Assembly: GCA_030024065.1 (NCBI GenBank)
Contig: JASEIE010000121.1
Span: forward strand, 1 to 10,599
Reading direction: 5' to 3'
Origin: Thermodesulfobacteriota bacterium
Lineage (GTDB): Bacteria; Desulfobacterota; BSN033; UBA1163
Length of the DNA: 10,599 nucleotides
This document shows positions 1,766 to 10,599 of this stretch, in pieces. The number at the start of each line of letters is the position of its first letter. Within the stretch, counting starts at the first letter, position 1. The position numbers were made by a program, and so were the translations under genes. The notes beneath the pieces were generated by a model. That model had not been told where the DNA came from. It saw only the letters and a program-made list of their open reading frames with translations, and made no database searches.

Positions 1766-3676
1766 TCATTGATCGAGAATCTCATCCCTTACCACTCCCA
1801 TGAGGTGGGGGAAGAGATCCCTCATGTGAGGGATTTGCATGGCCCCTATAAATTCCTTTTGGAAATCTTGCTCAATGGTGAGCTCCACATATTCCACTTT
1901 TCTTGCTATTTTCTCCGCATCGGCTCTTTTATCCCTGCTTAAGAGAGCCATCCTGGCGCCATCCCCGGCGGCATTGCCAACGGCATAGACGTTTTTTAGG
2001 TCACAATCAGGGAACATTCCTAATATCATCGCATTCTCAGGATCAATATAAGTTCCAAAGGCTCCTGCCAGAATCACCCTGTCGAGTTTCTCAATACCCA
2101 ATTTTTTCATCATTAATTTGGCCCCGGCATGGAGGGCTCCTTTGGCCAGCTGGACGCTTCTCACATCCTGCTGGGTGATGGTGATCTCTTTTCCAATGGA
2201 GGTCTCATCTTTCCAAGCGATCACAAATTCGGGTTTTTCATCAGAGACTATTAAACGGGAAGAGGGGAGTTCCTTTTTAAAACGGCCGCTCTTATCGATC
2301 ACTCCATTCCGATATAATTCAGCGACAGCATCGATGATCCCTGAGCCGCAGATCCCCTTTGCTTTTACATTTCCTGATTTTGATTTCCAATCAGAATCTC
2401 CGATTACTTTAAAATCGACCCCTAAGGTATCGGCATCGATTCTCACTCGTTCTATTGCCCCAAGAGCGGCCCTCATCCCAAATCGGATATGGGCTCCCTC
2501 GAATGCAGGCCCTGTTGCGCAGGAAGCAGAGAGGAGTTGATTTCTATTTCCCATCACGAGTTCGCCATTTGTTCCAACATCAACGATAAGAACCATCGCA
2601 TCCTGGTTATAAGGCTCTTCAGCGATAAGGACACCGACATTGTCCGCGCCCACAAATCCTGCCTCAACAGGAAGAATGTGGACATTTGCAGAGGGATGGA
2701 CCTTTAATCCCAAATCCCTTGCCTTAATGTCCATGGACCGATTGAGGGCGGGAGGGAAGGGGGATACTCCTAAATATTGGGGGTCGATACCGAGAAGAAG
2801 GTGATGCATCACCGTGTTTCCGACAACGGTCAATTCTAAAATATCGTCAGGAGAGAGCTTTATCCTTTCAGTAATCGTCTGGATCAACTGATTCAATCCA
2901 TTGGTGATTGCCTGATGTAATGTTTGAAGGCCATCCGGATGGGTCATCGTATAGGTGATTCTCGACATCACATCCTCACCATAAATCACCTGGGGATTCA
3001 TCCTCGATTCGGTTGCAACCACCTCTCCATTTCCGAGATTGCAGAGATAAGCCGCCACCGTAGTTGTTCCGACGTCAATAGCAATCCCATAAATTTCCTT
3101 TACATGACCGGGTCTGATATCAAGAATCTCCCTGTCCATCCATACTACTGCCGTAACTTTCCAATTCCCCTCCCTGAGGACGTGGGGAAGCTTCAGGAGG
3201 GCAGGATAGTCAATATCAAGATGGGGAAAATGGTAATTTTGAGAGAGAGCCTTTTTAAGGCGATTGCAATCGCTTCGGAGATCATGAAAGGAAGGAGGGG
3301 TTAGTTCTATGTAGTAAGAAATCAGGGCTGGTTTATGTTCGATCCGCTTTCCTGCTATCTCCTTTCTCACAACCTGTTTTTGAATCAAACTTTCTTCGGG
3401 CACGAAGATCAAAACATTTCCTCGAATCCGGGCAGAACAGGAAAGCCGATACCCTTCCAACCTTTCTGATTCTGATATGAATTTGGCCTCCTCGTCCGTG
3501 AAAGAGGAGAGTTCTCCTTCCAACATCTTGACCTTACATTTTCCACAGGTCTTTTCACCTCCACAGAGAGATTCAATCTGAACTCCTAACTCCCGAGAGG
3601 CTTCGAGGATGGTTTTTCCCTTATGTATCTCGCCTCTTTTACCAGAGGGTTGAAAGGTCACTTTAAATTTCTTCAT
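1766..3676 (-). CDS. RACo-like reductive activator of corrinoid proteins ([2Fe-2S] ferredoxin + DUF4445/ASKHA)
   Basis: A 636-residue ATP-dependent activator that re-reduces inactive Co(II) corrinoid proteins to Co(I). The N-terminal ferredoxin domain (about 1-95) has the [2Fe-2S] ligands C38-x5-C44-x2-C47 and C80. A linker/middle region leads into an ASKHA ATPase of the DUF4445 type from about residue 195. It has phosphate-binding loops DVGTTT (201-206) and DVGTNGE (366-372), and later GICGSGIIDA (441-450) and LAGAFGTYIDPENA (536-549). The length matches RACo from acetogens and related activators. It is the last gene of the methyl-transfer operon, 81 bp after the methyl-THF methyltransferase. 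The ribosome-binding site before its ATG is weak, consistent with a catalyst needed only in small amounts. The match to a corrinoid protein and methyltransferase in the same operon makes the role well supported. Which corrinoid proteins it activates is inferred. Confidence 0.93.
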   Translation of the reverse strand: MKKFKVTFQPSGKRGEIHKGKTILEASRELGVQIESLCGGEKTCGKCKVKMLEGELSSFTDEEAKFISESERLEGYRLSCSARIRGNVLIFVPEESLIQKQVVRKEIAGKRIEHKPALISYYIELTPPSFHDLRSDCNRLKKALSQNYHFPHLDIDYPALLKLPHVLREGNWKVTAVVWMDREILDIRPGHVKEIYGIAIDVGTTTVAAYLCNLGNGEVVATESRMNPQVIYGEDVMSRITYTMTHPDGLQTLHQAITNGLNQLIQTITERIKLSPDDILELTVVGNTVMHHLLLGIDPQYLGVSPFPPALNRSMDIKARDLGLKVHPSANVHILPVEAGFVGADNVGVLIAEEPYNQDAMVLIVDVGTNGELVMGNRNQLLSASCATGPAFEGAHIRFGMRAALGAIERVRIDADTLGVDFKVIGDSDWKSKSGNVKAKGICGSGIIDAVAELYRNGVIDKSGRFKKELPSSRLIVSDEKPEFVIAWKDETSIGKEITITQQDVRSVQLAKGALHAGAKLMMKKLGIEKLDRVILAGAFGTYIDPENAMILGMFPDCDLKNVYAVGNAAGDGARMALLSRDKRADAEKIARKVEYVELTIEQDFQKEFIGAMQIPHMRDLFPHLMGVVRDEILDQ

Positions 3677-3757
3677 CTCTAATTGTTCTGGGTGTGATGA
3701 TTCCGTATGGAAAAGATGATTTGGTATAAGGGTATATAGAAGATTTAAGTGAGGAAG

Positions 3758-4561
3758 TCAAAGTAAAATCTTTTTTTCTCTATAGGCCTTAAGAAATTCG
3801 AGGCAGTAGGGGTCTTGATTGGCGAGGACCTTGCTGGCATAGGCCGATGACACGAGAGCCTGGTCCCGGACATCGATCAGGAGGGTATCGAGGCCGGCGG
3901 CAATGGCCATCGTCAAGAAAGTTCGGTTGATCAATTTCCTTGCAGGAAGCCCCATGCTGACATTACTCACCCCGCAGGTGATGTGGGATTGAGGAAAATT
4001 CGACCGGATCGTTTTGATCGTCTCCAGAGCCACAAGGGCGGCATCGGGTTCCACGGCCACAGAGAGGACGAGGATATCAAAAAAGATATAATCAGGAGGG
4101 ATATCGGCCTGCACCAAATTCTGGTAAAGCCTTTTGGCTATGCCAACCCTTTCTTCAATCGTTTTTGGAATTCCGTGGTCATCCATCAGGAGGACGACGG
4201 TTTTGCATTTCTTCTCGGTGACGAGGGGGAAGAGTTGATCCCATTTTTCTTTTTCACCGGATATGGAATTGAGGATGGGCGGTTCCGAATGGCGGTAGAC
4301 CGAGAGGGCTGCCTTGAGGGCTTCAGGATTGGCGCTGTCGATCATCAGCGGAATAGGGACCTCTTTTTGAACGAGTTCCACCAACCAACAGAGATCATCA
4401 ACCTCATTCCCACCCGCCACACCCGCATTGACGTCCAGAAAATGGGCTCCACATTCATACTGGATTTTCGCCAATTCCCTGAGGAAAGGCTCGTTTCGAT
4501 CCAGGATGGCCTGCCCCACTTTTTGAATGGTGCCGTTAATCGACTCCCCAATCATTATCAT
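3758..4561 (-). CDS. AcsE-like methyltetrahydrofolate:corrinoid protein methyltransferase (MT2)
   Basis: A 267-residue single-domain pterin-binding TIM barrel, the size of Moorella AcsE/MeTr. It should move a methyl group between the corrinoid protein encoded just upstream and tetrahydrofolate, linking the operon to the folate (Wood-Ljungdahl) C1 pool. Visible family features are the N-terminal IGESING, the pterin-site DVNAG at D43, D75 in LMIDSANPEAL, N98 in ILNSISGEK, D162, and GVSNVSMGLPARKLINRTF (197-215). N200 there corresponds to the Asn that assists the MeTr reaction. The C-terminus reads DPYCLEFLKAYREKKILL. It starts 14 bp after the corrinoid-protein stop; a second in-frame ATG two codons in is an alternative. 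A related C-terminal fragment lies at 9988-10050. The direction of transfer in vivo (demethylation feeding folate, or the reverse) cannot be told from sequence. Confidence 0.93.
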   Translation of the reverse strand: MIMIGESINGTIQKVGQAILDRNEPFLRELAKIQYECGAHFLDVNAGVAGGNEVDDLCWLVELVQKEVPIPLMIDSANPEALKAALSVYRHSEPPILNSISGEKEKWDQLFPLVTEKKCKTVVLLMDDHGIPKTIEERVGIAKRLYQNLVQADIPPDYIFFDILVLSVAVEPDAALVALETIKTIRSNFPQSHITCGVSNVSMGLPARKLINRTFLTMAIAAGLDTLLIDVRDQALVSSAYASKVLANQDPYCLEFLKAYREKKILL

Positions 4562-4575
4562 ATGTTTCCATCCCT

Positions 4576-5211
4576 TTAGTGAACCATGAGGGACTTCACG
4601 ACGTCCACGGCAGAGGCAGCGTCCGGCGCATATCCGTCTGCGCCGATTTCTCCGGCAAACTTCTCTGTGAGGGGAGCGCCTCCCACAATCATTTTGACCT
4701 GATTCCTGAGGCCGGCCTTTTCAATCACTTCAATCGTCGTTTTCATCTCTCTCATTGTGGTCGTGAGCAGCGCCGACAGCCCAACCACCTGTGGCTGGTG
4801 GGTCCTGATGGCCTCCACGAATTTATCGGCAGGGACATCAATGCCGAGGTCAACTACTTCAAAGCCCCCTCCCTCGAGCATCATGATTACCAGGTTCTTT
4901 CCAATATCGTGAAGGTCCCCTTTCACCGTCCCTATGAGGACCTTTACCGCCATAGTCCCTGTAGATTTAGAGAGGATGGGCTTCAGGATGGCCATTCCGG
5001 CATGCATGGCCCGGGCAGCGATGAGGACTTCAGGGATGTATATCTCACCGCTTTTAAATTTGACTCCGATTCGGTCCATTGCTTGAAGAAGGCCATCTTT
5101 CAGAATCACTTCCGCCGACTCCCCTCTATCCAAAGCCTCCTGAGTCAGTCTCTTGGCTTCATCCATTTTCCCTTGCGAAAGGGCTGAATAAAATATTTCC
5201 TTGTCAACCAT
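4576..5211 (-). CDS. Methyltransferase cognate corrinoid (B12-binding) protein
   Basis: A 211-residue two-domain cobalamin carrier. The N-terminal helical cap (B12-binding-2 type, about residues 1-85) has the usual DGLLQAMDRIG and YIPEVLIAARAM stretches. The C-terminal Rossmann-like domain carries the base-off/His-on signature: GTVKGDLHDIGKNLV with D-x-H-x-x-G, then SALLTTT about 40 residues on, then VGGAP. The His (residue 101 from this start) would be the lower cobalt ligand. The length is standard for MtaC/MtbC/MtvC-type proteins. It would shuttle the methyl group between the putative substrate methyltransferase upstream and the AcsE-like enzyme downstream. The start is placed at 5211 because GGAGGTG sits 4-5 bases before that ATG. 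A frame-matched ATG at 5223 also has a weaker AAGGA, so a 215-residue form is possible. Confidence 0.94.
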   Translation of the reverse strand: MVDKEIFYSALSQGKMDEAKRLTQEALDRGESAEVILKDGLLQAMDRIGVKFKSGEIYIPEVLIAARAMHAGMAILKPILSKSTGTMAVKVLIGTVKGDLHDIGKNLVIMMLEGGGFEVVDLGIDVPADKFVEAIRTHQPQVVGLSALLTTTMREMKTTIEVIEKAGLRNQVKMIVGGAPLTEKFAGEIGADGYAPDAASAVDVVKSLMVH

Positions 5212-5221
5212 TTGCACCTCC
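5212..5221 (-). promoter_or_regulatory. Strong Shine-Dalgarno deciding the corrinoid-protein start
   Basis: On the minus strand the bases just before the ATG at 5211 read GGAGGTGCAA, a near-perfect anti-16S match at close spacing. The first codons of the longer reading (ATG GAG GTG CAA) are therefore probably the ribosome-binding site and not coding. The upstream ATG at 5223 has a second, weaker AAGGA about 7 bases away. Confidence 0.6.
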
Positions 5222-5254
5222 ATCTATTTTTCCTTAACGTGTCCGTTGTTCCAT

Positions 5255-6322
5255 TCAGATTTTCTTTCCATAAATTCCGACCTCCTGGAGATACCGGCAC
5301 ATCTCGATCAGCGCCTCAAGCTGGATACTCTCGTGGGCTGATCCGGCAATGGAGAGAAAAAATCCGCCCCCCTCCATTCCCTCTATTAGACACCGGTCCA
5401 CTTCCTCCCTGACCAAGGATAAATCGGATTGGCATAAGATCTGATTCCCGTCCATATTTCCTAAAAGAACCAGATCTTTACCGAACTCTTTTTTGATCTC
5501 CTTCATATCCATTCCCGCGGCCGGTTCTATGCCGTGAATTCCCTTAATCCCTGCTTCGATTACCATGGGAATATAATCACGGATATATCCTTCCGAATGC
5601 CAGAATACAGGAACCGGAATCGAATCGACAATACGGCGGTAATAAGGAAAAGCAAGCTCTTTAAAATCCGATGGCGACACATAACCATGGCCCTTGAAGC
5701 CCATGTCGTCACCCATGATGACGAAGTCGATCCCAAGATCCACCGCGTATTTCGAGGTTTCAATAAACCATTCTGTTTTCGACTCGACACTTTGCTCGAT
5801 CAACGTCCTTTTGTCAAACAGGGCATAGCAGAACTCAATAAATCCGAAGCATTCAATGGTTAAACCGAGCGGGCCGGTATGGGAGAAGAGGACGTGAGGA
5901 TAGTCAGAATAATCTTTTTTCCAATGGTCGATCAGGCTTTTATCGTATCGTTCATTTAACCTCAACTCGGGGGAATACTTTAGGAGGTCCTCCTGGCTGA
6001 CTAAAGCTCCTCCTACGTATCGGCCATGTTTCCATCGCCTCCCAAATTCATCGATTCCGTTCCAACCTGCGACCCCGGAACCTCCTAATGATTCCTCAGG
6101 GGGCGGCGGATTGGGTGAATATCCCAATCCGGAGGGGATTCCTTCACACCATGTCTTTCGGGCCATGACGAAAATATCAACGCCGAGTTTCTTCCAGGTC
6201 TCCACCATATTTCCATTTCCGATCGCCTTGACAAACCTGGCATCAATCGCATTAAAGAAGAGAGGGACCCTGTCCGGTTCCTTGTGTCGTATGGTTGTGA
6301 GGACTCTTTCTCTTGAATTCAT
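5255..6322 (-). CDS. Uroporphyrinogen-decarboxylase-fold protein, putative substrate:corrinoid methyltransferase (MT1)
   Basis: A 355-residue URO-D-fold protein of the type that includes MtaA/MtbA/CmuA-like cobalamin methyltransferases. The N-terminus MNSRERVLTTIRHKEPDRVP is the standard URO-D opening. Later blocks are VIMGDDMGFKGHGYVSP (201-217), PVPVFWHSEGYI (236-247), GIEPAAGMDM (264-273) and LVLLGNMDG (284-292). No signal peptide is seen, so it is cytoplasmic. Lying directly before a corrinoid protein, it probably demethylates the imported substrate and loads methyl on the corrinoid. A true heme-pathway decarboxylase is unlikely in this setting. MtaA/MtbA/CmuA-type enzymes bind zinc through an H-x-C motif; here the equivalent is H242-S-E244, so metal binding, if any, must differ. 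The start at 6322 is chosen for AAGGAG seven bases upstream; an ATG at 6358 in frame has no ribosome-binding site. The substrate is unknown. Confidence 0.87.
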   Translation of the reverse strand: MNSRERVLTTIRHKEPDRVPLFFNAIDARFVKAIGNGNMVETWKKLGVDIFVMARKTWCEGIPSGLGYSPNPPPPEESLGGSGVAGWNGIDEFGRRWKHGRYVGGALVSQEDLLKYSPELRLNERYDKSLIDHWKKDYSDYPHVLFSHTGPLGLTIECFGFIEFCYALFDKRTLIEQSVESKTEWFIETSKYAVDLGIDFVIMGDDMGFKGHGYVSPSDFKELAFPYYRRIVDSIPVPVFWHSEGYIRDYIPMVIEAGIKGIHGIEPAAGMDMKEIKKEFGKDLVLLGNMDGNQILCQSDLSLVREEVDRCLIEGMEGGGFFLSIAGSAHESIQLEALIEMCRYLQEVGIYGKKI

Positions 6323-6362
6323 CAATGCGCTCCTTTTATCCGTTCTACTACCGATCATTCAC

Positions 6363-6416
6363 TCACGGCGCAATGTTTCGACTGAGGGATTCCAACAAAC
6401 TTTTTATCTCTTTCAT
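6363..6416 (-). CDS. Possible 17-residue leader/small peptide between dctM and the URO-D gene
   Basis: In the 178-bp gap between dctM and the methyltransferase gene the minus strand has ATG at 6416 with GAGGGGG 4 bases upstream and a stop at 6363. It encodes MKEIKSLLESLSRNIAP, which would form an amphipathic helix. It may be a real small protein, a relic of a longer gene, or chance. No family is recognised. Confidence 0.2.
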   Translation of the reverse strand: MKEIKSLLESLSRNIAP

Positions 6417-6500
6417 CTTGCCCCCTCATCTGCGCAGGTCAGTGATTGTCAGTTTAAATTCTATTTTTGCTTGCCGGGGATAACGCTGGCTCATCCTGTC

Positions 6501-7805
6501 CTAATAGGTGATAAGGCCCGGTAAAAAAGTAGCAATCTGTGGGAAAATCACTAATATAATCGTTACAATAATCAATGCCGCAAGGAAGGGGAATATTCCC
6601 CTAAAGATTTTCTCAAGCGGCACATCAGGAGATATTCCCTTAATGACAAATACATTGACCCCTACCGGCGGCGTGATCACCCCCATCTCGGCTAAGAGCA
6701 CAATGATGACCCCAAACCAGATGAGATCAAAGCCGAGCTTCTTAACGAGCGGGAAAAAGATGGGGATGGTAAGCACGATGAGAGCCATGGAATCCATAAA
6801 GAAGCCGCCTATAAAGTATATGAAGATAATGATCCCCATGACAGCCATCGGGGGTATGGGAAGTCCCCCGAGCCAATCAGCCAGCGCGAAGGGTATCCTC
6901 GATACCGCCATGAACTTACCAAAGATGATAGCCCCGGTGATAATGAATAAAACCATACAAGATGTTCGCAAGCCTTCTTTGCCGGCTTCAAAAAATGACC
7001 GCCAGGTTAGCTGTCGCCGGGCCAAGCCGATGAGCAAGGTGCCGCCGGCCCCGATTGCTCCAGCCTGAGTGGGACCGAACCAGCCGAGAAATAAGCCTCC
7101 AATGGCCATAACGAAAAGAATCAAAGTCTCAATAATTCCTGTTGTTGATATAAGCTTCTCTTTCCAACTGGTTGGGGGGCCAGGGGGACCGATGGAGGGT
7201 TTGCGCCAGCAAAGAATAGCCACTGTTGCTGCAAAAAAGATGCTCAGGAGTATCCCAGGCAATATCCCGGCTACGAAAAGCTTGCCTATGGATTCCTCCG
7301 TCATTATCCCATAGACAATAAGGACAGTGCTCGGTGGGATAAGGATGCCAAGAGTGCCGGCAGCAGCGACAGTACCGGTGGCGAGTGTGTCATCGTACTT
7401 ATATTTCTTCATCTCCGGAAGCGCTATCTGGCCCATGGTCGCTGCCGTTGCCGTGCTTGACCCACAGATAGCGCCAAAGCCGGCACAGGCAAAGACGGTG
7501 GCTATGGTCAGGCCGCCCCGGAGGTGCCCTACCCAGGCATAGGTCGTCTTGTAGAGCCTTCGGCTAATTCCCGAAGCAAAGGCGAAGGTTCCCATAAGAA
7601 TGAACATGGGGATAACGCTTAACGGATAAGAGGAAAAAGTGTCAAAGATATCGCGGCTAAGAAGATTAAGCGCCGCTTTTAGGGTAGTTAAATAAGCAAA
7701 ACCAACAAATCCAACCAAGGCCATGGCGAAGGCAATCGGCATTCTGAGCAGAAAGAGTGAGACGAGAAGGCCGATACCGACGATGCCTGCGGCAACTGGG
7801 CTCAT
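6501..7805 (-). CDS. dctM: TRAP transporter large permease (DctM)
   Basis: A 434-residue inner-membrane protein, full length for the DctM family, that carries out Na+-driven substrate transport in a tripartite TRAP system. Long hydrophobic segments run throughout, about 11-13 by eye. The family hallmarks are present: VIPMFILMGTFAFASGI (64-80), GFGAICGSSTATAATMG (109-125), TLGILIPPST (151-160), GWFGPTQAGAIGA (241-253), and near the end GFFMDSMALIVLTIPIFFP (334-352) and LAEMGVITPPVGVNVFVIKG (371-390). Its ATG overlaps the dctQ stop as ATGA, so the two permeases should be translationally coupled in near 1:1 ratio. A GAGGA lies about 10 bases upstream inside dctQ. It is followed by a 178-bp gap before the methyltransferase genes on the same strand. 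Confidence 0.96.
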   Translation of the reverse strand: MSPVAAGIVGIGLLVSLFLLRMPIAFAMALVGFVGFAYLTTLKAALNLLSRDIFDTFSSYPLSVIPMFILMGTFAFASGISRRLYKTTYAWVGHLRGGLTIATVFACAGFGAICGSSTATAATMGQIALPEMKKYKYDDTLATGTVAAAGTLGILIPPSTVLIVYGIMTEESIGKLFVAGILPGILLSIFFAATVAILCWRKPSIGPPGPPTSWKEKLISTTGIIETLILFVMAIGGLFLGWFGPTQAGAIGAGGTLLIGLARRQLTWRSFFEAGKEGLRTSCMVLFIITGAIIFGKFMAVSRIPFALADWLGGLPIPPMAVMGIIIFIYFIGGFFMDSMALIVLTIPIFFPLVKKLGFDLIWFGVIIVLLAEMGVITPPVGVNVFVIKGISPDVPLEKIFRGIFPFLAALIIVTIILVIFPQIATFLPGLITY

Positions 7806-8293
7806 TTCTGCACTATCCTCTTCAGCGATTTAAGAAACTCCAGTAACAAAACCAACCAGACGGGAACACTGGCAAGGGAAATACTATAAGCAAAAGGATA
7901 AAAGGGTATGCTGGCAGTTGCACTATACTCGCCCGAGGTTTGAAAGGAGTAACCGAGCACACAAAGTCGCCAAATAATCAAACTGAAGAGTCCTATTCCA
8001 AGAAGAAGAACAAAGCTTTTGATAACTGCCTGGGCACGCCTTGGCAGCCGAGCAATAAAAAATTCTACCTGGATATGCCGGCGGAGAATCAGCAACATGC
8101 CAGCAGCAAAGGCAATTGCCACTATCTGGGAAAGCATGACGATGTCAATAGCGCCAAAGAGAGGCCAAAGAAAGACCTTAGCCCCCACCACATCGATACA
8201 GGTGATAGCCATTATCACCAGCAGCCCGGCAAGCCCTATTCCCTCAAATAAGCTACATAACCGGCGATTGAACTTTTCAAATTTGTCTAACAC
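7802..8293 (-). CDS. dctQ: TRAP transporter small permease (DctQ)
   Basis: A 163-residue four-helix membrane subunit that pairs with DctM. Hydrophobic segments are at about 17-34, 49-69, 90-110 and 133-153. The typical LILRRHIQVEFFIARLP loop (68-84), with the H-x-V-E pattern of DctQ proteins, follows helix 2. The start is placed at GTG 8293 because AAGGA lies seven bases upstream and the next residues, LDKFEKFNRRL, look like a normal DctQ N-terminus. An in-frame ATG at 8359 would add a 22-residue Gly/Pro-rich leader encoded by a GC-rich hairpin, without a ribosome-binding site, and is judged not to be coding. The stop overlaps the dctM start by 4 bp. Confidence 0.92.
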   Translation of the reverse strand: MLDKFEKFNRRLCSLFEGIGLAGLLVIMAITCIDVVGAKVFLWPLFGAIDIVMLSQIVAIAFAAGMLLILRRHIQVEFFIARLPRRAQAVIKSFVLLLGIGLFSLIIWRLCVLGYSFQTSGEYSATASIPFYPFAYSISLASVPVWLVLLLEFLKSLKRIVQK

Positions 8294-8314
8294 GGTGTTT
8301 TCCTTACCATCTGC

Positions 8315-8347
8315 GGTGGGTACGGGGGAAACCCCCCCGCACCCACC
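8315..8347 (-). repeat. Stable GC-rich stem-loop between dctP and dctQ
   Basis: A 14-bp inverted repeat with one mismatch (arms 8315-8328 and 8334-8347, 5-base loop) lies just upstream of the dctQ ribosome-binding site. On the minus-strand transcript the arm begins GGTGGGTGCGGGGG. There is no following U-run, so it is not a standard intrinsic terminator. Its position between the binding-protein gene and the permease genes suits an mRNA-stability or attenuation element that lets DctP be made in excess of the membrane subunits. That role is inferred. The gap to dctP (8294-8468) holds no other gene. Confidence 0.6.
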
Positions 8348-8468
8348 CTCGGGCGGCAATATTGATTGATAAACAGTCCAAGTCCGTCAAGCTTATTCCC
8401 CCATATTGGGAGTCTTATTCTTCTCAACTGTTAGGGGTCTCCTTCAGGGGGTCAGCCTGTCCATTTTT

Positions 8469-9572
8469 TCAGGGCCTCGGTTTAACCTCCGGAGGCCCGG
8501 CTGGTGAATAGATGCGATATGCAATCTGCTTTTTCGTCCAGTGATCAATTCGATCCCTCAGGAATTTGATCCAGCCTTTCACCTCTGCCTCTGAATGCCC
8601 TTTGCCCACCATAGTTTTTATATAACCATCTATTACCGGTTCGGCTGCTGCCTTCCACTTTGGCACCTCATCCGGGGGCAGTTCAATAAATTCTACACCC
8701 TTCTCCCTACCATACTCTTTGCCGACGAAATCCACGGCATTCCACATCAAGATATATTGTTCCTTGTATTCCCCAACAAGGTTGTCAAAGATGACTTTAA
8801 TATCTGCCGGCAACTTCGCGTAGCTGTCCTTGTTCATCGCCAAATAAAAGGGAAAGGGGTTGGTGATTTGCCAGACTGACGTCGAATATTTTACAACTTC
8901 CGCAAACCGGAACGTTCTGAGTGTTTCAAAGTTTGAAGCCTCTCCATCAAGTACGCCTTTCGAGATCGCATCATAAACTTCCGGCATCGGCGTAGGAGCC
9001 GGTGTTCCACCCAGCGCCTTAATAACAACACCGGCCATCCCGGGCGCTCTTATGGTCAGCCCCTTGAGGTCTTCCAGTTTGCGCACTGGCTTCTTGGCTG
9101 TGGCGATTGCGCTCGGGGGGGAAGTGTTCATCCAGAGCACTCTAACCTTTTCAAATTCCTTGGGCTTAAATTGATCGTAGAAATCATTGATGACTTGACC
9201 GCTTACCCATGCACTGGGATAGGCGAGAGGCAAACCGACTGCTTCGGTAACCGGCATGCGACCTGAGGTGTAATAAACATGGGAGTAACCTATATCAGCG
9301 ATCCCGCTCACTATCCCATCGAATGTCGCCACTGGTGAAAGCAGTGAACCGCCAGCATAGAAATCAACCTTTACCCGACCACCGGTTCGTCTTTCTAATT
9401 CCCGACAAAATTCTTCTAATACTGTGGATTGGCTAGCTGGGGCAGGAAAGTAAGTAGCTACTTTTAACCTTACCACCTGTGCATGGGCCTTTCCAGAAGG
9501 GAAGACAGATACCATGAACCCCACGCAAAGAACCACCGCCAGAACTACCATGAATAATCTCTTCTGTCTCAT
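8469..9572 (-). CDS. dctP: TRAP transporter periplasmic solute-binding protein (DctP family)
   Basis: A 367-residue extracytoplasmic binding protein that captures the substrate for DctQM. The N-terminus is a classic Sec signal peptide: MRQKR, a hydrophobic core, then cleavage after A-H-A31. Mature sequence starts near QVVRLKVATYFPAPA. Family landmarks are the FYAGGSLLSP strand (71-80), the hinge region LEDLKGLTIRAPGMAGVVIK (166-185) and PTPMPEVYDAISKGVLDGEA (193-212). R175 is the conserved arginine that salt-bridges the ligand carboxylate in most DctP proteins, so the cargo is probably a carboxylate. The start is fixed by a perfect AAGGAGGT seven bases upstream. It is the first gene of the operon, which goes on to a corrinoid methyltransferase module, suggesting the ligand is the methylated substrate. 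Confidence 0.95.
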   Translation of the reverse strand: MRQKRLFMVVLAVVLCVGFMVSVFPSGKAHAQVVRLKVATYFPAPASQSTVLEEFCRELERRTGGRVKVDFYAGGSLLSPVATFDGIVSGIADIGYSHVYYTSGRMPVTEAVGLPLAYPSAWVSGQVINDFYDQFKPKEFEKVRVLWMNTSPPSAIATAKKPVRKLEDLKGLTIRAPGMAGVVIKALGGTPAPTPMPEVYDAISKGVLDGEASNFETLRTFRFAEVVKYSTSVWQITNPFPFYLAMNKDSYAKLPADIKVIFDNLVGEYKEQYILMWNAVDFVGKEYGREKGVEFIELPPDEVPKWKAAAEPVIDGYIKTMVGKGHSEAEVKGWIKFLRDRIDHWTKKQIAYRIYSPAGPPEVKPRP

Positions 9573-9792
9573 TTGTAATACCTCCTTTCTTTGGGTTTTA
9601 AATTATATGTTTATTCCACCTTTCATTTGAACTTTTTTAATATAAAACAAGAAAAAAGTCCATTCTTTATAATATGTCTATAGTACCCTAACCGGAAGGT
9701 CGGGGATGTAAGGATCGGTTGCTCAAGATGGACAAAGAAATCTGTTAAAAAGTGATAAGGTAATCAAAGGGTCCAGGATTCTTTTTTAAGTT

Positions 9793-9885
9793 CTACAAAT
9801 GTACTGGTCGGAAGATCAGGGCATTTGTCTTCTCTTTGTATGAACCCGATGCCATTTCAATAAATCCAACTCTGCGGAAAAACGT
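9793..9885 (-). pseudogene. Possible C-terminal relic of a GNAT acetyltransferase
   Basis: The minus strand is open here for about 30 codons, ending in a TAG at 9793. The reading includes TFFRRVGFIEM and, at the end, NALIFRPVHL. The pattern of an aromatic/Phe-rich helix, then GF-hydrophobic-E, then a final strand resembles the last ~30 residues of GNAT acetyltransferases. There is no start or upstream domain: a TAA occurs at 9904-9906. It may be a decayed gene end or coincidence. Confidence 0.22.
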
Positions 9886-9899
9886 TCTACATATAGAAC
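9884..9899. promoter_or_regulatory. Perfect 16-bp dyad, candidate operator for the dctP operon
   Basis: GTTCTA-CATA-TAGAAC is a perfect inverted repeat with a 4-base centre. It lies about 15-30 bases after the expected transcription start of the minus-strand promoter at 9921-9949, where a bound repressor would block the polymerase. The half-site spacing and GTTC...GAAC ends resemble IclR-family operators known from TRAP and catabolic operons. No regulator gene is in the window, so the binder is unknown. Confidence 0.5.
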
Positions 9900-9920
9900 A
9901 TTGTTATCCAATTTTGCGTA

Positions 9921-9949
9921 ATATTACTAAAGCTATTTTTCTTTGTCAA
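9921..9949 (-). promoter_or_regulatory. Candidate sigma-70 promoter for the dctPQM-methyltransferase operon
   Basis: On the minus strand, TTGACA (9944-9949, a perfect -35) is followed after exactly 17 bases by TAATAT (9921-9926, 4 of 6 to the -10 consensus). The expected start is near 9914. It points toward dctP, has no intact gene between, and sits directly upstream of a perfect dyad. This is the best promoter in the window. It would give a long leader and could drive all seven genes down to 1766. Confidence 0.6.
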
Positions 9950-9987
9950 GGGAATTATGGGTCTTTCTGAAAATGGGTGAGAAAAAT

Positions 9988-10050
9988 TTATATTAGAATC
10001 TTCTTCTCTCGGTAGGCCTGGAGAAATTCGAGGCAGTAATAGTTTGCATT
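9988..10050 (-). pseudogene. C-terminal fragment of a second methyl-THF methyltransferase gene
   Basis: The minus strand encodes YYCLEFLQAYREKKILI and a TAA at 9988. This nearly duplicates the end of the intact methyltransferase at 3758-4561 (YCLEFLKAYREKKILL). DNA identity is also visible: agaaattcgaggcagta occurs in both copies. Homology stops at about 10050, where a palindromic element begins at 10053, so only the last ~20 codons remain. It has no start codon or ribosome-binding site and cannot make an enzyme. It is either the scar of a duplicated methyltransferase gene lost by deletion or insertion, or the trace of a rearrangement that moved this gene end. The promoter of the dctP operon starts about 40 bases beyond its stop. 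Confidence 0.8.
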
Positions 10051-10052
10051 TT

Positions 10053-10103
10053 GTAACGCAAGGCTTCAGCCCTGCTATAAGCAGGCCTAAAGGCCCGCGC
10101 TAC
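10053..10103. repeat. Palindromic repeat element, 23-bp imperfect arms
   Basis: Arms 10053-10075 and 10081-10103 pair as an imperfect inverted repeat (17 of 23 positions) around a 5-base loop, tataa. The outer ends read GTAACGC and GCGCTAC, and the inner ends CCTGC and GCAGG. Such GTAGCGC...GCGCTAC palindromes look like REP/MITE-type repeats dispersed in genomes, but copy number cannot be seen here. It begins where homology to the methyltransferase fragment ends. Confidence 0.65.
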
Positions 10104-10111
10104 GGTCCCCT

Positions 10112-10281: not shown

Positions 10282-10599
10282 ATGAACAGACGGCCTCTTA
10301 AAAAGTCCTTTCGATGGTTGGTGCTTGCCTGTGCCGTAATGGAAAGGGAGGTTCGCCAATTTGGAAATGGTAAAGTCGAATTCAAATATTTTGATTACGG
10401 TTTACACCGCACTCCGGAAAATATGGCCAAGGCCCTTCAGACAGAAATTGATCAGGCCGAAGAAAAGGATTACAAAGGCATTATAATAGGTTATGGCCTT
10501 TGCAGCAATGGGATTGTGGGCCTCCATTCCCGTAAACATCTCCTCGTCATTCCAAGAATCCATGACTGTATCACTCTATTTTTGGGATCCACCGAAGCC
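10282..10599 (+). CDS. DUF1638-family protein, N-terminal part (3' truncated by window edge)
   Basis: An open frame of 106 codons runs from ATG 10282 to the window end. After a basic N-terminus it reads RWLVLACAVMEREVRQF, then EFKYFDYGLHRTPENM, GIIIGYGLCSNGIVGL and LLVIPRIHDCITLFLGS. This order is that of DUF1638: a Cys-containing first strand, the Y/LGLH-xxP block, GYGLC-x-NG, and the PR-x-HDCI-x-LLGS block. The conserved cysteines and His-Asp-Cys suggest a metal or cofactor site, though the biochemical role is unknown. In other genomes DUF1638 genes are often found beside corrinoid methyltransferase genes (recollection, not checked), which fits this neighbourhood. It diverges from the dctP operon. 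No clear ribosome-binding site precedes the ATG, so the exact start is uncertain. About the last half of the gene is missing. Confidence 0.85.
   Translation, partial: MNRRPLKKSFRWLVLACAVMEREVRQFGNGKVEFKYFDYGLHRTPENMAKALQTEIDQAEEKDYKGIIIGYGLCSNGIVGLHSRKHLLVIPRIHDCITLFLGSTEA

Follow-up and report, generated by a model that had tools for sequence, protein, structure and literature searches.

A putative import-coupled corrinoid demethylation operon with a TRAP transporter in a Thermodesulfobacteriota bacterium

The window analysed here is a whole 10,599-nucleotide stretch of DNA of a Thermodesulfobacteriota bacterium (contig JASEIE010000121.1), and its - strand carries the seven-gene dctP operon, which is predicted to join import by a tripartite ATP-independent periplasmic (TRAP) transporter to corrinoid-dependent demethylation (Table 1). 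The genes encode the TRAP subunits DctP, DctQ and DctM, a URO-D-fold methyltransferase (MT1), a corrinoid protein (CP), a methyl-tetrahydrofolate (methyl-THF):corrinoid methyltransferase (MT2) and a reductive activator of the corrinoid protein (RACo). Their order and positions had been given correctly in a first-pass annotation of the same DNA. Each matched its own Pfam family above cut-off, and all three subunits of a DctPQM-type transporter were identified in this way. As for NCBIfam models, DctP passed NF037995, DctM TIGR00786 and MT2 PRK07535 (299 bits vs a cut-off of 259); the nearest models of RACo, CP and MT1 stayed under cut-off, and none matched DctQ. The earlier idea that one promoter serves the whole path from import to methyl-THF gained from the conservation of the promoter and from these family matches, and the seven genes are presumably co-transcribed. 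To call the path self-contained was an overstatement, since CP, MT2 or RACo is missing beside MT1 in several relatives. Loci and genomes of relatives are labelled L and G, respectively.

Table 1. Features of the window
Feature	Position	Strand	Evidence or remark
RACo, reductive activator of corrinoid protein	1766..3676	-	PF14574, PF17651, PF17650, PF00111; 2Fe-2S motif from residue 38
MT2, methyl-THF:corrinoid methyltransferase	3758..4561	-	PF00809; PRK07535 above cut-off
CP, corrinoid protein	4576..5223	-	PF02310, PF02607; DxHxxG motif, residues 103-108
MT1, URO-D-fold methyltransferase	5255..6322	-	PF01208; start moved from 6358; model with predicted local distance difference test score of 92.7, URO-D/MtaA fold
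dctM, TRAP large permease	6501..7805	-	PF06808; TIGR00786 above cut-off
dctQ, TRAP small membrane protein	7802..8293	-	PF04290; start moved from 8359 by length of relatives
Strong hairpin, 14 pairs, no U tail, between dctP and dctQ	8314..8347	-	z -2.87 for 137-base stretch
dctP, TRAP solute-binding protein, TarP-like (aromatic acids)	8469..9572	-	PF03480; fold neighbours
Palindrome GTTCTN6AGAAC, putative operator of IclR-family regulator	9884..9899		1 match in window, 0.01 expected
-10 element TAATAT, 17-base spacer	9921..9926	-	TANNAT with same spacing in 7/7 loci
-35 element TTGACA	9944..9949	-	7/7 scanned loci with orthologous dctP (six also aligned)
Remnant, last ~17-19 codons of second MT2 gene (MT2')	9985..10049	-	Reading frame ...YYCLEFLQAYREKKILI*
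DUF1638 gene, truncated at window end, divergent island flank	10282..10599	+	PF07796

A plain promoter scan of the window gave a chance-level result (17 sites vs 14.6 expected). The promoter at 9949 is supported as real by its conservation, TTGACA-N17-TANNAT being kept in all seven loci with an orthologous dctP. Promoter and palindrome occurred together, at a near-constant distance, in 7 of 15 scanned loci (the window, L001, L002, L003, L006, L013 and L098). The palindrome reads GTTCTN6AGAAC in all of these except L002, where it is GTTCN8GAAC. The pattern was absent within L004, L005, L007 and L008, whose TRAP genes are different or absent. On the contig of L004 (genome G004), a site was located about 850 bases to the left of that locus, before IclR and PaaK genes.

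We then extended the search to the 17 genomes of the order of G001, with the reversed pattern as control, and to 395 sampled genomes of the phylum. Fifteen sites were found in 12 of the 17 genomes and none with the reversed pattern. By position, five of them lie before dctP (G001, G002, G003, G008 and G012) and ten before an IclR-family gene (G003, G004, G005, G006, G008, G011, G012, G013, G016 and G017). All 15 sites are thus placed as in an IclR regulon, where the regulator gene and its target operon share the same site. In the phylum sample, the pattern was present in nine genomes, all belonging to the order's 17. An IclR relative occurs in 14 of the 17 genomes, and the next gene is PaaK-like in ten, dctP in two (directly following IclR in G005 and G006) and a molybdopterin oxidoreductase in G016 and G017. 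From this placement, it can be inferred that the IclR protein binds the palindrome, and the window's own genome would be expected to carry the IclR gene. The nearest models of the IclR protein are BhcR, then PcaR/PcaU/PobR or KdgR, all below cut-off. Broken IclR genes were considered and rejected, as the stops reported in four IclR matches fall at or near match ends. Upstream of IclR, an aminotransferase gene is adjacent, with radical-S-adenosylmethionine-like genes before it, in five of five genomes (G003 by Pfam; G001, G008, G011 and G013 by BLAST). Downstream of PaaK, genes for a molybdopterin oxidoreductase, an NAD(P)/Fe-S oxidoreductase and branched-chain-type ATP-binding cassette (ABC) transport follow in G003, G011 and G013; both oxidoreductases are lacking there in G001, and the contig of G008 ends at this point. 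The IclR-PaaK runs with oxidoreductases and ABC transport genes in L128, L129 and L131 possibly represent an aryl-acid oxidation pathway.

The structural model of DctP is nearest to binding proteins for caffeate, coumarate, ferulate, cinnamate and 4-hydroxyphenylacetate. Among the best 15 rows of fold neighbours, 11 are visibly named as aromatic or TarP and four have no visible ligand; ectoine binders also occur among the fold-neighbour rows. Judging from the model, with aromatic-acid binders as its nearest solved structures, DctP would belong to the TarP group. Arginine R175, previously put forward as a pointer to the substrate, is indeed present and is invariant in 35 aligned sequences (the window and 34 chosen from 120 listed). 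It fits a carboxylate and does not tell which one, and we take it to be the general TRAP arginine. A conserved arginine is mentioned for TRAP binding proteins in the available text of PMC3610893. Methoxylated aromatic acids are favoured among the substrates proposed earlier for three reasons: i) DctP clusters with aromatic-acid binding proteins, ii) the same promoter and palindrome precede an IclR gene, mostly followed by a gene of the phenylacetate-CoA-ligase family, and iii) MT1 matches no MttB-type family.

As for MT1 itself, an assignment to the MtaA/MtbA/CmuA type was rejected, because the HxC...C zinc site is absent, with WHSE and SIAGSAH at those positions, and because TIGR01463 scored 45.9 bits vs a cut-off of 235.4. 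We take HxC...C to be the MtaA zinc motif, as also read from the alignment with an MtaA-type protein of the island described below; a neighbouring protein in L001 has both this motif and the TIGR01463 match. HemE was rejected as well, as TIGR01464 was not reported at E 0.001 and a separate URO-D protein of at least 447 bits is encoded in seven of eight genomes. The structural rows listed for MT1 did not include CdmB, the chloromethane enzyme, which is the best PDB match of the paralogues UROD6b and UROD413. An in-frame TGA (selenocysteine) in clade-B MT1 was also considered and dropped: the L011 copy, when read with TGA as U, gave no U and one ambiguous residue.

The remaining three proteins have the features of a three-component corrinoid methyltransferase system, to which they would belong by family membership. 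The cobalamin motif DxHxxG of CP reads DLHDIG, and the best NCBIfam model of CP is MtgC (glycine betaine specific), at 244 bits and below cut-off. In RACo, which has the 2Fe-2S and ASKHA domains expected of this activator, four RACo/Fer2 Pfam matches are accompanied by CX5CX2C...C. The CdhC/acetyl-CoA synthase family is present in all nine genomes tested, so that methyl-THF has an outlet. With regard to ring reduction, class I benzoyl-CoA reductase (TIGR02263) had matches in the same number of genomes, above cut-off in none of the nine.

At E under 1e-60, MT1 of clade A was found in 8 of the order's 17 genomes. In the phylum sample, 5 of the 395 genomes had clade A and another three had clade B. 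It is also present in G007 (L008), which lies outside the order's 17. A TRAP transporter precedes MT1 in eight of the ten clade-A loci examined, these eight coming from seven genomes (L001, L002, L003, L004, L006, L007, L013 and L098, in the last of which dctQ was not called separately). In seven of the ten, MT1 directly follows the permease gene, and in L006 a PaaK-like gene of the CoA-ligase family stands between them. The TRAP transporter linked to MT1 in L004 and L007 is a different one, and L005 is cut and starts with a PaaK-like gene. In the gene-order search that had been called for, the complete seven-gene order recurred in L002 only; elsewhere either CP and MT2 or RACo is missing next to MT1. 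Most clade B and C loci examined have no TRAP neighbour. In L010 and L017, clade-B MT1 adjoins branched-chain-type ABC transporters instead, together with a corrinoid protein and MT2, and L017 and L018 also carry a metallo-beta-lactamase-fold protein. Chloroflexota relatives of MT1 form clade C (33-40% identity), in a different conserved neighbourhood without corrinoid genes in the BLAST set, and therefore say little on the system. Several of them (33-37%; L030, L031, L034, L035 and L037-L041) share a recurring neighbourhood, and their URO-D-fold protein perhaps has another role.

In addition, the operon or its MT2' border is part of a larger island, which lies on a single contig in both G001 and G012 and is split among contigs in G003 and G005. 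The second block of this island comprises URO-D proteins, a second TRAP, corrinoid proteins, an MtaA-type methyltransferase and MT2'. A divergent PocR-AraC/CP/DUF1638 unit is present where the contig extends far enough (G001, G003 and G005). In G001, where L090 and L001 share one contig, we counted two TRAPs, four URO-D proteins, four corrinoid proteins, two MT2 and one RACo besides the divergent unit. The DctP of the second TRAP in L006 appears lactate/keto-acid-like. L013, the closest relative, has CP, an MtaA-type gene and MT2' directly before dctP; a DUF2284 predicted metal-binding protein is encoded (L013 282-806) immediately before the second corrinoid set. The island had been overlooked in the first-pass annotation, as had the palindrome, an IclR regulator that probably acts in trans, and a deletion remnant. 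Within this remnant, window positions 9985-10038 are 80% identical to the MT2 3' end. The window DUF1638, 709 bases from dctP, shares 59-70% identity with its divergent counterparts in L090, L092 and L093 (G001, G003 and G005). Both the MT2' 3' end and an island-type DUF1638 remain, which is most simply read as a probable deletion, in the window, of what lay between them, the island's upstream half. A repeat-like, GC-rich imperfect hairpin at ~10052-10105, beside the remnant, would mark the break; its 23-base part was found in none of 101 loci and its 13-base part in one. In L002, a DUF1638 gene also lies before dctP, but it gave no match to the window DUF1638 in the same BLAST.

With the gene families and their order, the conserved promoter and palindrome, the IclR-side site in relatives, the TarP-like DctP and the CdhC genes of relatives before us, we consider it likely that the operon couples the import of methoxylated aromatic carboxylates to their O-demethylation, under IclR control and with CoA ligation. 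Gene roles are here assigned by family; substrate, methyl chemistry and direction of flux are proposed. DctPQM, as a TarPQM-type TRAP, would capture and import a ferulate-, vanillate- or homovanillate-like acid. MT1 would transfer the O-methyl group to Co(I) of the corrinoid protein, and MT2 would hand it on to tetrahydrofolate, methyl-THF entering the Wood-Ljungdahl pathway. RACo would re-reduce Co(II) corrinoid using ATP, and the remaining phenolic acid would proceed to CoA ligation. The IclR-family regulator, by binding the palindrome just downstream of the promoter, would control two operons, the dctP operon and the one that contains the regulator gene itself, usually followed there by a gene for a PaaK-family CoA ligase.

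Several observations weigh against this interpretation. At E up to 0.01, the MT1 profile matched MtaA and two structures of the URO-D type, and neither an O-demethylase nor CdmB; the latter was matched only after more distant paralogues had been added (E 3.3e-8, C-terminal part). MT1 fell into no characterised clade, in a comparison without MtvB, OdmB and MtoB sequences, and the demethylation chemistry therefore rests on context. L008 has MT1 and no TRAP gene. TarP-like DctPs are common (50 of 137 DctPs in these genomes exceed 90 bits vs the window DctP) and six of the eight MT1-linked DctPs are mutual orthologues, so the association of TRAP with MT1 could be partly due to chance. By sequence, the closest DctP structures are 4n6d, 4pgn and 4nap, with presumed ligands. 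As for regulation, G002 has the operon and its site, yet no IclR match at 1e-30, and G001, G009, G015 and G018 have IclR relatives without a strict site before them. Finally, the scores of the PaaK-like ligases fall well short of the PaaK cut-off (214 vs 646), and the match does not fix the ligase substrate.

The alternative that survives best, though we regard it as unlikely, is that TRAP imports a non-methoxylated aromatic acid, while MT1, CP, MT2 and RACo use another donor (methylated sulfur, an amine or a haloalkane) and share the promoter through lifestyle. It draws on the unplaced substrate of MT1, on the mixture of two TRAPs and four URO-D proteins in the G001 island, on the resemblance of UROD6b and UROD413 to CdmB, and on TarP family members that also bind non-methylated acids. 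However, MT1 keeps its place after the permease gene (or, in L006, past the ligase gene) even with a different TRAP (L004 and L007), and volatile or membrane-permeable donors would need no TRAP. That TRAP and methyltransferase operons are separate catabolic units abutting by chance seems to us quite improbable: the dctM-MT1 gap and the TRAP-less clade B and C loci would agree with it, but the eight TRAP-MT1 loci in seven genomes speak against it, the gap holds no consensus terminator on the - strand, and in L006 MT1 is still next after the inserted gene. Least probable of all is a TRAP-imported N-methylated or sulfonium carboxylate (betaine or dimethylsulfoniopropionate type) that is then demethylated, for although several TRAP binding proteins accept amino-acid-like solutes (the ectoine rows) and many relatives have an aminotransferase gene ahead of IclR, the N-methylated amino acids suggested in the first-pass annotation have little in their favour beyond the below-cut-off MtgC resemblance of the corrinoid protein.

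The import-coupled O-demethylation reading can be widened, tentatively and with slightly more doubt than trust. MT1, with H-x-E where MtaA has its zinc site, might stand for an undescribed clade of import-coupled aromatic-acid demethylases in Thermodesulfobacteriota-related anaerobes. One IclR regulon would then join uptake, methyl harvest and ring-acid activation (by the CoA ligase or molybdopterin oxidoreductase branch), and in the full island two TRAPs would feed four URO-D methyltransferases of differing substrates.

As for gene boundaries, dctQ and dctM overlap by 4 bases, and gaps of 31 and 14 bases separate MT1 from CP and CP from MT2. Larger gaps were found between dctP and dctQ (109 bases with the long dctQ start), dctM and MT1 (142 bases), and MT2 and RACo (81 bases). 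MT1 probably starts at 6322 rather than 6358, because residue 13 is an invariant Met in a 44-sequence alignment, where most displayed rows start, and because an RBS-like (ribosome-binding-site-like) stretch is present. The length of relatives likewise indicates that DctQ probably starts at ~8293 (GTG) rather than at TTG 8359. The hairpin between dctP and dctQ is a possible mRNA-stability or processing element, by which dctP mRNA could be held at a higher level than that of dctQM. No riboswitch was matched by Rfam at gathering score in the window. At the other end of the window (positions 2-1700), the end of a gene for HsdR (type I restriction) and one for a YgjP-like metallopeptidase are convergent with the operon; neither was labelled among the printed loci of relatives.

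In anoxic sediments, lignin methoxyl groups form a large store of methyl, and the uptake and demethylation of lignin-type acids by uncultured anaerobes are poorly known. If our interpretation is true, it offers a route coupled to a transporter, predicts a regulator whose operator is defined and yields a short list of testable substrates for a lineage met here as metagenome-assembled genomes. An expressed bacterial-type methyltransferase cluster is described, in the available text of PMC10989822, from a Desulfobacterota bin of a lignin-fed sediment enrichment. It fits such a lifestyle, and we do not claim its identity with the window operon.

Among known systems, we compare the operon with the aromatic O-demethylase systems MtvABC, OdmABCD and MtoABCD. 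Each has, in one cluster, a URO-D-superfamily MT1, CP, MT2 and, in Mto, a corrinoid activator (PMC8630106 and PMC13222342, as far as their available text goes). The Mto operon differs in having major facilitator superfamily and efflux transporters instead of TRAP, and MtoB, at 47-48 kDa (PMC8630106, available text), is larger than the window MT1 of 355 aa, whose placement in the MtoB clade was not achieved. The Cdm chloromethane system of Acetobacterium dehalogenans shares a URO-D-fold MT1, CP and MT2, and no zinc was seen in CdmB, the window MT1 likewise being without the MtaA zinc motif; its substrate, however, is a gas, no transporter is named in the accessible portion of PMC13222342, and the MT1 similarity was detected via paralogues only. 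The RdhUVW cluster of Desulfitobacterium hafniense combines a corrinoid protein, a URO-D protein and a MeTr-like MT2, but it is linked to reductive dehalogenases, is of unknown function, and has no TRAP named in the sections of PMC9888536 at hand. Type 1 mlp clusters of many anaerobes place coenzyme M methyltransferase homologues with corrinoid proteins, but these have residues positioned for zinc binding, whereas the window MT1 lacks the MtaA zinc motif, and a methyl-sulfur/selenium role has been proposed for them (PMC10418091, available text). On the transport side, the window DctP is 21-26% identical to the TarP structures 7nrr, 7nsw, 7ntd, 7nra and 7nqg, and its model suggests a likeness of ligands. 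TarPQM of Rhodopseudomonas palustris lies beside coumarate-metabolism genes (PMC3610893, available text), whereas the window TRAP lies in a corrinoid demethylation operon. Among the matches listed from titles and abstract starts of the open-licence PMC literature, none described a corrinoid O-demethylase operon that includes a TRAP transporter; the terms "TRAP transporter" and "corrinoid" co-occur in the available text of PMC9888536, PMC8154354, PMC5924567 and PMC6069880. Corrinoid O-demethylase operons with other transporters are already known, and the TRAP-coupled form would be a new variant of them.

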